A DNA stretch of 64,000 nt from Acidobacteriota bacterium (GCA_021325515.1 JAJPHC010000063.1:1-64000), one strand, 5' to 3'; positions 20,971 through 25,980 are shown, counted from the stretch's first letter. Program-made: numbers and translations. The notes: a model not told the origin generated them from the sequence alone.

Positions 20971-21040
20971 CAACATCCCGCTTGGGTGTAAGCTTTCCGA
21001 AATCGGCGACTACGTGGATCCCTCTGGAAAGGAACGCACC

Positions 21041-23053
21041 ATGCGGCACTGGGGCCTGGTCAGTGTTCTGTCTCTTCTGATTGCGGCAGCGGCTGGAGGC
21101 GAAGGGCGCGGACGCGCAAGCGCGAAGCCGGCAACGCCGCACTTCGGTGACGGACAGCTCGAAGCGTACTGGGCCGATCAGCAGATCGCGTACATCCGTC
21201 CCGGTCTGCACATCGTCATCAACTCCGTAAACATCGACAGCGATCGCAAAGCCACGGTCGATTTCAATCTCTTCGATGATGCGAAGCAGCCGCTCGATCG
21301 CGAAGGAAACGCGACACCGGGCGCGGTCTCGATGCACTTCATCCTCTCCATGTACGACGCGGCGACGCGCACGTACACGCCGATCGTCACCGCAGATTCA
21401 GGCGGACGCTTCACCGATCTTCAGTCGGGGCACGGCACCTACACTTTCGGTACGCCCCTGCCTCCGCTGTATGACGCGGCGAAGACGTACACCGCCGGCG
21501 TGTACGCCACGCGGATGCTCGCGGATCTCGTCGGCAAGGACTACGTCGCGAATGCGGAGCTCGACTTCCGCCCCGATGGAGATGCGATCAAGGATCGCTG
21601 GGACATCATTCGCGACTCGACGAGCTGCAACAACTGCCACGATCCCCTCTCCGCACACGGAGGCGAGCGCCGCGACGTGAAGCTCTGCGTCCTCTGCCAC
21701 ACGCCGGGTGCGAAGGACGCCGCGGGCACCTCGATCGACATGACGATGATGGTTCACAGGATTCACCGCGGTGTGAATCTCGCGAACAAGCCGTATGTCC
21801 TCACCGCACCGAACAACGCGAAGTTCGATTTCTCGAACGTCGTCTTCCCGAATGACCTGCGCAACTGCGCGGAGTGCCACGAAGGATCCGATGCGGCGAA
21901 CAAGCCTTCCCAGGCGAGCGTCTGGTACTCGTTCCCGTCGCGCACGTCGTGCGGCTCCTGTCACGACAATGTCGACTTTGCGACCGGAGCGAATCATCCC
22001 GGCGGCAAGCAGCCCGATGACTCGAACTGCGCGAAGTGCCACATCGCCGACAGCGGCAAGGAATACGACGCATCGATCAAAGCGGCGCACACCGTTCCCT
22101 ACAAATCGAGACAACTGAAGGGACTGATCGCGCAGATCATCAGCATCACGAACTTCGCGCCGGGACAGAAGCCGACGGTCGTCGTCGACCTGAAGAACGG
22201 CGACGGCAGCGCAGTCGACGGAAAAGGTCTGACCTTCGGATTGATGTACGCGGGCCCAGCCTCCGACTTCAGAACGAACGTGCGTGAAAACGCGGCCAGC
22301 ACGGCGATCGATCCGGCGACGGGCCGCACGTCGTACACCTTCACGACGCCGCTCCCCGCCGACGCCGGCGGAACCTGGGCAGTCGCCGCAGATGTCAGCA
22401 GGACCGTGCAACTGATCCGCGCCGACAAGCTGCCGAACATTCCCGTCATCGAGAGCAGCAACGCCGTCCAGTACACGACGGCTGACAAATCCGCGGTGAT
22501 GCCGCGCAGAACCGTCGTCACGACGCAGCAATGCAACGCCTGCCACGACTCGCTGCGCGCGCATGCCGGACAGACCACGACGACTGCCGAGTGCGTGATC
22601 TGCCACAACGCATCGGGCAACGACGCAGCGGCCCGCCCGACGAGCGAAGGTCTGCCGGAGTCGATCTCGTTCCAGCGGATGATTCATCGCATTCATCGCG
22701 GCACACAGCTGACGCAGGACTACACCTTGTTCGACTCCGCCGGCGGACGGCATCACTACAATGCGATTCCGTTCTCCGGCGACACGCGCAACTGCGCGAA
22801 GTGTCACGTCGCAGGGTCGACCACCCTCCCGCTTCCGGCGGGCGGCGCACCGGTGATCACGCTGCGCGATTACTACACGCCCCAGGCTCCAACCTCCGCC
22901 GCCTGCCTCGGTTGTCACGACACGCTCGAGACGTCCGCGCACGCCTACATCAACACCACGACATTCGGCGGGACGAGGGCCGCCGCCGAATCGTGCTCGA
23001 CATGCCACGGGCCGGGAAAGGAACACGACGTCGCGAAGGCACACGCGCGGTGA
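21041..23053 (+). CDS. OmcA/MtrC-family decaheme cytochrome c
   Basis: 670 residues from the ATG at 21041 (AAAGGA seven bases upstream). A signal peptide without a lipobox Cys is followed by beta-rich domains and two pentaheme blocks. Ten CxxCH motifs are present: CNNCH, CVLCH, CAECH, CGSCH, CAKCH, then CNACH, CVICH, CAKCH, CLGCH, CSTCH. Family members sit on the outer face of the outer membrane and pass electrons to extracellular acceptors. Unlike Shewanella MtrC/OmcA, it is not predicted to be a lipoprotein. It overlaps or abuts the DmsE-type gene. Confidence 0.93.
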   Translation: MRHWGLVSVLSLLIAAAAGGEGRGRASAKPATPHFGDGQLEAYWADQQIAYIRPGLHIVINSVNIDSDRKATVDFNLFDDAKQPLDREGNATPGAVSMHFILSMYDAATRTYTPIVTADSGGRFTDLQSGHGTYTFGTPLPPLYDAAKTYTAGVYATRMLADLVGKDYVANAELDFRPDGDAIKDRWDIIRDSTSCNNCHDPLSAHGGERRDVKLCVLCHTPGAKDAAGTSIDMTMMVHRIHRGVNLANKPYVLTAPNNAKFDFSNVVFPNDLRNCAECHEGSDAANKPSQASVWYSFPSRTSCGSCHDNVDFATGANHPGGKQPDDSNCAKCHIADSGKEYDASIKAAHTVPYKSRQLKGLIAQIISITNFAPGQKPTVVVDLKNGDGSAVDGKGLTFGLMYAGPASDFRTNVRENAASTAIDPATGRTSYTFTTPLPADAGGTWAVAADVSRTVQLIRADKLPNIPVIESSNAVQYTTADKSAVMPRRTVVTTQQCNACHDSLRAHAGQTTTTAECVICHNASGNDAAARPTSEGLPESISFQRMIHRIHRGTQLTQDYTLFDSAGGRHHYNAIPFSGDTRNCAKCHVAGSTTLPLPAGGAPVITLRDYYTPQAPTSAACLGCHDTLETSAHAYINTTTFGGTRAAAESCSTCHGPGKEHDVAKAHAR

Positions 23054-24003
23054 ATGAGGTGAGTGTGAGGAGTTGGTTTGCAGCAGCATTCATCCTGCTG
23101 CTCCTTCAGGGAGCTGCGATGGCAGCACCCGCCCGCAAGCGCGAGAAGATCCCGCCGGAGAAACTCCACAACACCTGCGAAGACTGTCACGGCGATCGCG
23201 TCGAACGTTTCCGCACGAACACGCACGGCTTCGGCCGCCATCCTGAAGACGGCCCGTTACCCGATTCCTTCTGCGAAGCCTGCCATGGCGACGGCCGCGC
23301 GCATAACGAGAGCGGCGGCGAAGCATCGCTCATCTACGTTCCGTACGGACGCGAAGGAGCCGACCGCGCGTGCCTCAAGTGCCATGACCAGAACTCGCGC
23401 GAGCCGGAGTCGATTCATGTCCCTCTCCGCGTGCGCGTGAACCAGCCGGCCGGCGTACACGCCAATTCCGAGATGGTCAACTGCTTGACTTGTCATTCGA
23501 TCCAGCACGAGGAACCGCGCTCGCCCTATCTCCTCCGCTGGCAGCAGGAAAAACTCTGCGCGATCTGCCATCCGGCGGAGGTGGCGTCGTTCCGCAATCA
23601 GCCGTACTCGCACCGGCTCGGACGCGGCGGCATGGAGTGCTCCTCCTGTCACGATCCGCATGCGGGCGCAGGCACGGACAACCTGCGCATGACGGCGGCG
23701 GGCGAGCTCCCCTGCCTCAATTGCCACGCGGAACAGCGCGGGCCGCACGCATTCGAACATGGCGATGGCGCCGAGAACGGATGCCTCAACTGCCACGACA
23801 TTCATGGTTCGTCCAATCCGAAGATGCTCAAGCGCGCCTCCGTCGCGCAGCTCTGCATCGAGTGTCATTCGCCGCTGTCGGCGGCGTCGTTCGGCTCGCA
23901 GCCTCCGTCGTTCCACAACCTCGCATCGCCGCGCTTTCAGAACTGCACCACGTGCCATGTGAAGATTCATGGATCGGATCGCGATCCGCACCTGCTGGAG
24001 TAG
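23050..24003 (+). CDS. DmsE/MtrA-type periplasmic decaheme cytochrome c
   Basis: 317 residues. The GTG at 23050 overlaps the upstream stop (GTGA); GTGs at 23059 and 23065 are alternatives. A signal peptide ends near QGAAMA. Ten CxxCH motifs follow: CEDCH, CEACH, CLKCH, CLTCH, CAICH, CSSCH, CLNCH, CLNCH, CIECH, CTTCH. The pattern is that of DmsE/MtrA, which fills the barrel lumen and moves electrons across the outer membrane. It directly precedes the barrel gene, with no gap. Confidence 0.92.
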   Translation: MNEVSVRSWFAAAFILLLLQGAAMAAPARKREKIPPEKLHNTCEDCHGDRVERFRTNTHGFGRHPEDGPLPDSFCEACHGDGRAHNESGGEASLIYVPYGREGADRACLKCHDQNSREPESIHVPLRVRVNQPAGVHANSEMVNCLTCHSIQHEEPRSPYLLRWQQEKLCAICHPAEVASFRNQPYSHRLGRGGMECSSCHDPHAGAGTDNLRMTAAGELPCLNCHAEQRGPHAFEHGDGAENGCLNCHDIHGSSNPKMLKRASVAQLCIECHSPLSAASFGSQPPSFHNLASPRFQNCTTCHVKIHGSDRDPHLLE

Positions 24004-25980
24004 ATGAAGATGAGAACGCTGACACGGCTCGCTCTTCTGCTGCTCCTGCCATCGGTCGCATTCGCGCAAGCCGCGCCCGGCTCCATCCCGCCCGTGGCCA
24101 CCGAGCCCGCGCCTCCCGGGCCACTCGACATCGAGATCGGCTACCGCACGCTCTCGCTCAAAGGAAACGAAGATCTCTATCGCACGCAGATCAACGAGCG
24201 CCGCGGCATCTTCATCCGCTCGATGACGATCCTGACCAGCGAGCCGCGCGACATCTCGCAGATCGATCGCCTGCGCATCGACGGAACGGAGATCGGCCCC
24301 GGCTCGCCGGCCAGCGCGCTTCGTCTCGAAGCCAGCCGGTACAGCTACTACCGCCTGCTCTTCACCTGGCGGCGCACGAATTCGTTCAGCGCACTTCCCG
24401 CGTTCGCGAATCCTCTCCTCGAGCAGGGAGTGATCACGGGACAGCACACCTACGACCGCCGGCGCGACATGATGGACGCACAACTCGACCTGCTGCCGCG
24501 CGCGAAGATCACGCCGTTCATCGGCTTCGGATTCCGGAAGCTGAGCGGGCCCGGCACGAGCACCTTCACCACGGGGACGAATGAGTTCCAGCTCTCGCAG
24601 AGCGTCGAGGAGCGGGAGCACGAATATCGCGGCGGCGCGTACTACGACTTCGGATCGGTGCGCGGCTCGATCACACAAGGCTGGCGGCGGCTTCGGTCGG
24701 ATCAGACATGGACACTGCTGTCGCGCGACGGGAACGAGAGCGATCCCGTCCTCAATCACCCGACATTCGCAACCGCGATGCAGCGCGACGATCACAGCCG
24801 CACGCGCACGCCGTTCACGAACGCCGTGTTCGCCGCGCAGGTCGCACCGCGCATTCGTCTCAAAGCCAGCTACGTGCGCTATTCGGCCGAAACGGATGAC
24901 GAAGGAACCGGCGATCTCGCCGGCTCCTTCATCTCGCTGCCGATGCTGCGCTTCTTCAACGTCATGAGCGAGCGAGTTTCCTCGAGCGCGAAGAAGACTG
25001 TCACGCGCGGGAGCGGCCGAGCCGAAGTCCTGGTGCACAAGGATGTGACGCTGTTCGCGGCGTATCAGAACGAGCGCCGCGACATCGCCGGAACCGGCCT
25101 GCTCGATACGCTCTATCAGGAGACGCTGAATTTCGATGGCCTCGACAAACGCGACATCGAGGCGATTCTCCGCAGCAACAGCTCCATCCATCGCCGCAGC
25201 AACCTCGGCCTGGCAGGAATCTCGTTCCGCGCCCCGGGACCGCTTTCCCTTCGCTTCGAAGCGCGCGATGACCGGCAGCAGCTCGACGTCGCGAAGGACC
25301 TCGCGGAAATCGTGCTTCCCGGAAATCAGTGGGGCACGTGGGACCGGCATGTGAAGACGCTCGACGGCACCGCGTCGTTCATGCGCGGCAACGTCTACCT
25401 CGGCGCCTCCTACCGGCGCGATCGTGCGAACGTGGCGGTGTTCCGCAGCGACTTCCTCGATCGCGATCGCGCGCGCGTTCGCGCGAGCTGGCGCAGGACG
25501 AAATGGTTCCACGCCAGTCTCAGCGCCACCGAGACGCGGCAGTCGAATGATCGAACGGACACGGCGCTGCACGCGAAGTCGAGGCAGTACGGCGGCGACT
25601 TCGAAGCGATTCCGTGGCATGCCATCTCCTTCCACGGCTCGGTCTCGCGCTTCACGACCGACAGCAGAATTCTGATCCGCCATCCGGAGACCTTCATCAC
25701 GGAGCCCTCGATTTACGCAGGACGCGGCACGGCGCTCGACGGCGGCGTCACGGTGACCCACGGCCTCTTCACGTTCGCCGCGAACGGCGGGCGTTTCCGC
25801 AATCGCGGAGAAAATCCGTTCACGATCCGGCGCGCGACGCTGCACGCCGGCTTCTCGTTTCCGAACTCGCGGGCCGGCATGCTGCTCGAGCTCGCGCGCG
25901 ACAAGTACAGCGACACGAACGCGTCCTTCTCGAACTACACGGCATCGCGCGCCGGCATTTACGCGACCTATAGACCTTGA
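24004..25980 (+). CDS. MtrB/PioB-type outer-membrane beta-barrel
   Basis: 658 residues. The signal peptide ends at SVAFA; the rest is alternating amphipathic strands with frequent terminal aromatic residues, ending in a YATYRP strand. Length and position right after the DmsE-type gene match MtrB/PioB, the sleeve of porin-cytochrome conduits. The CxxC found near the N-terminus of Shewanella MtrB is absent. The ATG follows the upstream TAG immediately, so the three genes form one operon. The barrel assignment is by pattern and context; sequence similarity in this family is low. Confidence 0.85.
   Translation: MKMRTLTRLALLLLLPSVAFAQAAPGSIPPVATEPAPPGPLDIEIGYRTLSLKGNEDLYRTQINERRGIFIRSMTILTSEPRDISQIDRLRIDGTEIGPGSPASALRLEASRYSYYRLLFTWRRTNSFSALPAFANPLLEQGVITGQHTYDRRRDMMDAQLDLLPRAKITPFIGFGFRKLSGPGTSTFTTGTNEFQLSQSVEEREHEYRGGAYYDFGSVRGSITQGWRRLRSDQTWTLLSRDGNESDPVLNHPTFATAMQRDDHSRTRTPFTNAVFAAQVAPRIRLKASYVRYSAETDDEGTGDLAGSFISLPMLRFFNVMSERVSSSAKKTVTRGSGRAEVLVHKDVTLFAAYQNERRDIAGTGLLDTLYQETLNFDGLDKRDIEAILRSNSSIHRRSNLGLAGISFRAPGPLSLRFEARDDRQQLDVAKDLAEIVLPGNQWGTWDRHVKTLDGTASFMRGNVYLGASYRRDRANVAVFRSDFLDRDRARVRASWRRTKWFHASLSATETRQSNDRTDTALHAKSRQYGGDFEAIPWHAISFHGSVSRFTTDSRILIRHPETFITEPSIYAGRGTALDGGVTVTHGLFTFAANGGRFRNRGENPFTIRRATLHAGFSFPNSRAGMLLELARDKYSDTNASFSNYTASRAGIYATYRP

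Follow-up and report, generated by a model that had tools for sequence, protein, structure and literature searches.

The window, by which we mean the whole 64-kb stretch of DNA analysed here, lies on contig C52 of a 5.38-Mb, 63-contig genome. Three plus-strand genes occupy positions 21041-25980: gene A (21041-23053) overlaps gene B (23050-24003) by 4 bases, and B directly abuts gene C (24004-25980), as an earlier reading of the sequence alone had described. That sequence-only reading counted 20 haems in the operon, which agrees with the 10 CXXCH motifs that we find in A and the 10 in B. The genes and the domains of A are as follows.

21041..23053, + strand: gene A, OmcA/MtrC-family decahaem outer cytochrome, 670 aa (TIGR03507, 10 CXXCH)
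21161..21568, + strand: A domain I, N-terminal beta domain, residues about 41-176 (AlphaFold2 model)
21626..22042, + strand: A domain II, first five haem motifs, residues 196-334 (CXXCH positions)
22124..22480, + strand: A domain III, second beta domain, residues about 362-480 (beta-rich in model)
22532..23044, + strand: A domain IV, second five haem motifs, residues 498-668 (CXXCH positions, PF22113)
23050..24003, + strand: gene B, DmsE/MtrA-family periplasmic decahaem cytochrome, 317 aa, GTG start (TIGR03508, 6r2q_A)
24004..25980, + strand: gene C, predicted 26-strand outer-membrane beta-barrel of MtrB fold, 658 aa (AlphaFold2, Foldseek, VIA-align)

The trio is flanked by genes for an M16 peptidase and a DUF480 protein; no multi-CXXCH open frame other than A and B occurs in the 64-kb window, and scanning the operon for promoters, terminators and Rfam families turned up no more than would be expected. 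Because the barrel relatives that carry titles come from metagenome genomes of Thermoanaerobaculia and other Acidobacteriota, we place the host, by sequence relationship, in or near the class Thermoanaerobaculia.

Two decahaem cytochromes of the OmcA/MtrC and DmsE/MtrA families

Gene A matches the OmcA/MtrC family model TIGR03507 well above its NCBIfam cut-off (E=1.2e-119; 400.8 bits against 209.3), and its best PDB match by phmmer is MtrF (3pmq, 1.3e-34); with its 10 CXXCH motifs, the label of an OmcA/MtrC-type decaheme stands. The protein begins with a type-I-like signal peptide, after which two beta domains alternate with two pentahaem domains, a layout seen both in the 5+5 spacing of the haem motifs (residues 196, 216, 276, 304 and 330 in domain II; 498, 518, 585, 622 and 652 in domain IV) and in an AlphaFold2 model whose pLDDT of 59 supports the domain layout and is too weak for further fold claims. 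Domain I is beta-rich in this model, with pLDDT mostly 70-92, while domain IV matches the Pfam model for MtrC/MtrF domain II/IV (PF22113). All 20 Cys of A lie in haem motifs. Outside the CXXCH motifs, 10 His are invariant among homologues, a number equal to that of the haems; these are candidate distal haem ligands.

The description of B as a DmsE/MtrA-type decaheme likewise holds: it scores just below the cut-off of the DmsE model TIGR03508 (E=1.6e-56; 191.7 bits against 192.2 in NCBIfam), and its residues 41-311 align to residues 65-325 of the MtrA chain 6r2q_A, nearly full length (E=4.8e-26). All 20 of its Cys belong to its 10 CXXCH motifs, every one of which is invariant in 21 homologues. 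The N-terminus is hydrophobic and qualifies as a secretion signal; in-frame GTG codons at 23059 and 23065 are alternative starts.

A barrel of predicted MtrB fold that escapes family models

Gene C had been called an MtrB/PioB-type barrel. Against Pfam and NCBIfam it gives no match at E<=1, and PF11854 (MtrB_PioB), having no match anywhere in the host genome, fails as a detector of this barrel family. The label therefore rests on profile and fold evidence, and there it finds support. An AlphaFold2 model built with 15 homologues (mean pLDDT 77.6) has 26 strands, the same count as MtrB (PMC8415449). The best solved match to this model is MtrB itself (6r2q_B; Foldseek E=3.7e-15), followed by a TonB receptor at 2.9e-08; by VIA-align, C superposes on 6r2q_B with a Z of 22.0 and an rmsd of 3.8 Å over 523 aligned residues, the next best structure reaching a Z of 15.3. 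We considered whether C might be an unrelated barrel, such as a TonB receptor or porin, but such barrels fall far below MtrB in the fold search. Identity between C and MtrB is only 9-11% in the structural alignments. A profile of C homologues matched acidobacterial PF11854 barrels by hhalign (probability 98, E 4e-14), a single comparison that we treat as supportive, not decisive. Given these fold-search and profile results, we predict the MtrB fold for C and regard it, although it fails the family model, as very probably a diverged homologue of MtrB.

The missing lipid anchor is lineage-wide

The sequence-only reading flagged three oddities: an outer cytochrome without a lipobox, a barrel without the CxxC of MtrB, and an outer cytochrome encoded first. 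All three features are present; on the sequences compared, only the first is genuinely odd. The outer cytochrome does come first, but mtrC, mtrA, mtrB is also the order in S. oneidensis, so that the arrangement is the familiar Shewanella one (PMC8805035). C does lack CxxC, as it contains no Cys at all, but this is not telling, because we found no CxxC within the first 150 residues of the acidobacterial PF11854 barrels examined.

The absence of a lipobox, by contrast, is real and, judging from the homologues, lineage-wide. No Cys precedes the first haem motif of A, and a credible lipobox was found in 0 of 37 trio-type A proteins. An upstream start does not supply one: the open frame extends back to 20876, and the one earlier start listed for it, a GTG at 21014, adds MDPSGKERT, which contains no Cys. 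An LFSC motif in the homologue at L051 was also rejected as a lipobox, lying upstream of the likely start. The CX8C pair is missing too, both from domain III of A, which has no Cys outside CXXCH, and from the mature part of all 37 trio-type proteins.

A second set of acidobacterial outer cytochromes, which we take to be Holophaga/Geothrix-like, shares with A its membership of TIGR03507 and its 10 haems but differs in its anchor: all eight carry a lipobox. These proteins (L147-L152) are about 890 aa long, and the lipobox is followed by GTN repeats resembling a collagen-like linker. Some of their genes stand in tandem, often with two small pentahaem genes preceding them, and no B or C gene adjoins them.

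Docking without lipid is feasible by analogy, because soluble MtrC lacking the lipid site joins MtrAB in vitro, and the resulting complex resembles the native one (PMC8415449). As for the disulfide, S. oneidensis MtrC deprived of its CX8C pair generates peroxide, and aerobic growth is arrested (PMC9973256).

Conservation of the trio and a second copy in the host

Homologues of C were found at E<=1e-3 in 43 of the 101 genomes searched, host included, a few of these matches being weak or partial. Among the loci fetched, the order A (10 haems), B (10 haems), C recurs at 26 others from the class, a count that includes a second trio in the host and one locus whose C is cut by a contig end; at five further class loci A is absent or truncated at a contig end. 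Nine trios from other acidobacterial classes keep the same order, with a NapC-like gene between A and B in one (G221) and a second A after C in another (G242). No rearranged trio was seen among the class loci and these nine. Conservation across dozens of genomes rules out a chance or misread frame.

The barrels of the nine outside trios and C form one family by profile comparison (E 2e-104). PF11854 finds matches in 71 of 297 genomes of a phylum sample, and the matches listed lie elsewhere than the trio barrels; the PF11854 barrels resemble C in profile and, where examined, in lacking an N-terminal CxxC, and differ from it in location and in that C scores nothing against PF11854.

Two other arrangements were observed. 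Four class members (L063-L066) encode B with a very distant C-like barrel (~25% identity) and no A; these loci are possible MtrAB-only intermediates between the barrel family of the window and PF11854. At L104 (JASJCB010000160.1) and L144 the order is A-B-C-A, with an extra outer-cytochrome gene beyond the barrel, a tandem duplication reminiscent of Shewanella omcA/mtrC.

The second complete trio of the host lies on contig C27 and is 50% (A), 51% (B) and 39% (C) identical to that of the window. In a tree of concatenated A, B and C, the window trio groups with that of another genome, G001 (support 0.96), near the G009 trio and the C27 copy, and its branch is the longest in its group. Since this branch exceeds those of its neighbours, the window trio might be a second copy in the course of divergence, its role specialised or reduced. 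The sequence gives no sign of decay: every haem motif is preserved, as is each of the ten invariant non-CXXCH His of A.

Candidate routes from the quinone pool

The earlier observation that the window holds no CymA-like quinol dehydrogenase is correct, yet it is uninformative, because the genome encodes putative quinol-oxidising modules outside the window, one of which adjoins the second trio. There (L035:4580-14898; G000:C27 about 63580-73898), A2-B2-C2 are preceded, in order, by genes for a small monohaem cytochrome, a Rieske protein, a cytochrome b-11-haem fusion and a membrane protein with no Pfam match. The monohaem cytochrome, Rieske and cytochrome b-11-haem genes are likely to be a quinol-oxidising bc-type module wired to the conduit.

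In relatives, NapC/NirT-domain multihaem proteins and cytochrome b561-multihaem proteins adjoin the trios; by size and domain, we assign the former as ImcH-like and the latter as CbcL-like. The host genome encodes one ImcH-like protein on C8 and one CbcL-like protein on C19, the latter 66% identical to one near a relative's trio. Together with the proteins of the C27 module, these are candidate quinol oxidases. Neighbours of the ImcH/NapC-like kind were known earlier at porin-cytochrome clusters (PMC13264449).

Two further loci were noted in the host genome. An alternative complex III cluster (L165; G000:C40 about 98400-105500) includes pentahaem and NrfD/ActD subunits. On C51, a giant 1337-aa open frame on the minus strand (L167:4489-8502; G000:C51 about 211488-215501) contains 42 CXXCH motifs, with 20 doubled-CXXCH stretches among them, and is adjoined by 6-, 6- and 9-haem genes; it encodes a giant multihaem cytochrome that is possibly extracellular or filament-forming.

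A probable porin-cytochrome conduit

We consider it highly likely that the three genes together specify an MtrCAB-type porin-cytochrome conduit, whose assembly, lipid-free docking, outward direction and acceptor we infer. An MtrCAB-type identity, already proposed from the sequence, draws support from the homology of A and B, the predicted fold of C and the conserved gene order, and from these we infer function. Like the Shewanella complexes (S. oneidensis and S. baltica MtrCAB; 6r2q), the trio comprises three subunits in the same gene order with 10+10 haems, a four-domain outer cytochrome, an MtrA-type decahaem protein alignable over nearly its full length and a predicted 26-strand barrel. Unlike them, it has a barrel of only 9-11% identity without CxxC, an outer cytochrome without the N-terminal lipid Cys or the domain III CX8C disulfide, and no CymA in the cluster. 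By description, it can also be set beside MtrCAB Group 5 of the Acidobacteriia (Bryobacterales), which belongs to the same phylum but to another class than our Thermoanaerobaculia host; both have clustered MtrC, MtrA and MtrB and no adjoining quinone oxidoreductase, whereas the tetrahaem cytochrome directly downstream of mtrB in Group 5 is absent here (PMC8805035).

In the mechanism that we propose, the ten-haem B would occupy the 26-strand barrel C and reach across the outer membrane, with the four-domain, MtrC-type A docked on the outer mouth of the barrel. Electrons from the quinone pool would arrive via the ImcH-like protein (C8), the CbcL-like protein (C19) or the Rieske/cytochrome b-11-haem module (C27), and A would hand them on to an acceptor outside the cell, for example humics or minerals of Fe(III)/Mn(IV). 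Contacts with the B and C proteins are probably all that holds A in place, since it lacks a lipid anchor.

The direction of flow is most likely outward. The same complex could instead run inward in the manner of MtoAB/PioAB, with Fe(II), a partner cell or some other reduced donor as the electron source. The reversibility in principle of NapC/ImcH-like and cytochrome bc-like modules favours such a role, and MtrAB homologues are known to run in both directions (PMC8805035). We nevertheless judge it improbable: an MtrC-type outer cytochrome is present here and absent from PioAB systems, and the host genome contains no RuBisCO, which leans away from CBB-based lithoautotrophy, the carbon-fixation check having covered RuBisCO only. 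In addition, Thermoanaerobaculum aquaticum, of the same class, is a cultured iron reducer, and the MAG assigned to it (mg007) has one MtrC and two MtrA among large multihaem cytochromes, resembling our host by description (PMC9671151).

The missing anchor raises another prospect, namely that A is set free outside the cell, where it would carry electrons in soluble form, and that the conduit proper consists of B and C. This would fit a protein without a lipobox or any Cys outside its haem motifs, and the contrast between 0/37 trio-type and 8/8 Holophaga-type proteins with a credible lipobox. The strict A-B-C synteny argues against it, as does the finding that protein contacts alone held soluble MtrC on MtrAB (PMC8415449), and we think release unlikely. 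That the conduit feeds a dedicated extracellular terminal reductase of the DMSO-reductase type, as in Shewanella DmsEFAB, is very unlikely: such complexes could serve DMSO reduction (PMC13264449) and B falls in the DmsE-named TIGR03508 (at 191.7 bits, just under the 192.2 cut-off), but we recognised no gene for a molybdoenzyme or another reductase next to the trio, the terminal position is taken by an OmcA/MtrC cytochrome, and B matches the MtrA chain over nearly its full length.

Implications

MtrCAB was already known in other Acidobacteria (PMC8805035), and mtr homologues are stated to be common in Acidobacteriota (PMC8787282). Within the literature compared, what appears to be new is a barrel family without a model, the lineage-wide absence of anchor and disulfide, and the link between the second copy and a bc-type module. 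In GAL08, mtrC was found without mtrAB (PMC8787282); a barrel missed by existing models is a possible explanation. More broadly, and tentatively, since we regard the full combination as plausible but doubtful, the trios may represent a phylum-specific branch of Mtr systems, with its own barrel family, an outer cytochrome held or released without lipid, no CX8C switch, and a second copy coupled to a multihaem bc-type quinol oxidase.

An anchor-less lineage offers a natural test of the Shewanella-based claim that docking contacts suffice to hold MtrC, and a lineage without CX8C a natural test of the claim, also from Shewanella, that the disulfide is needed against flavin-driven peroxide in air. 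Were the second copy coupled to a bc-type quinol oxidase that carries a multihaem domain, energy could be conserved when quinol is oxidised for extracellular respiration. Finally, if the conduit reading is right, barrel searches with PF11854 or NCBIfam overlook this system, and extracellular electron transfer in Acidobacteriota may therefore be under-counted.
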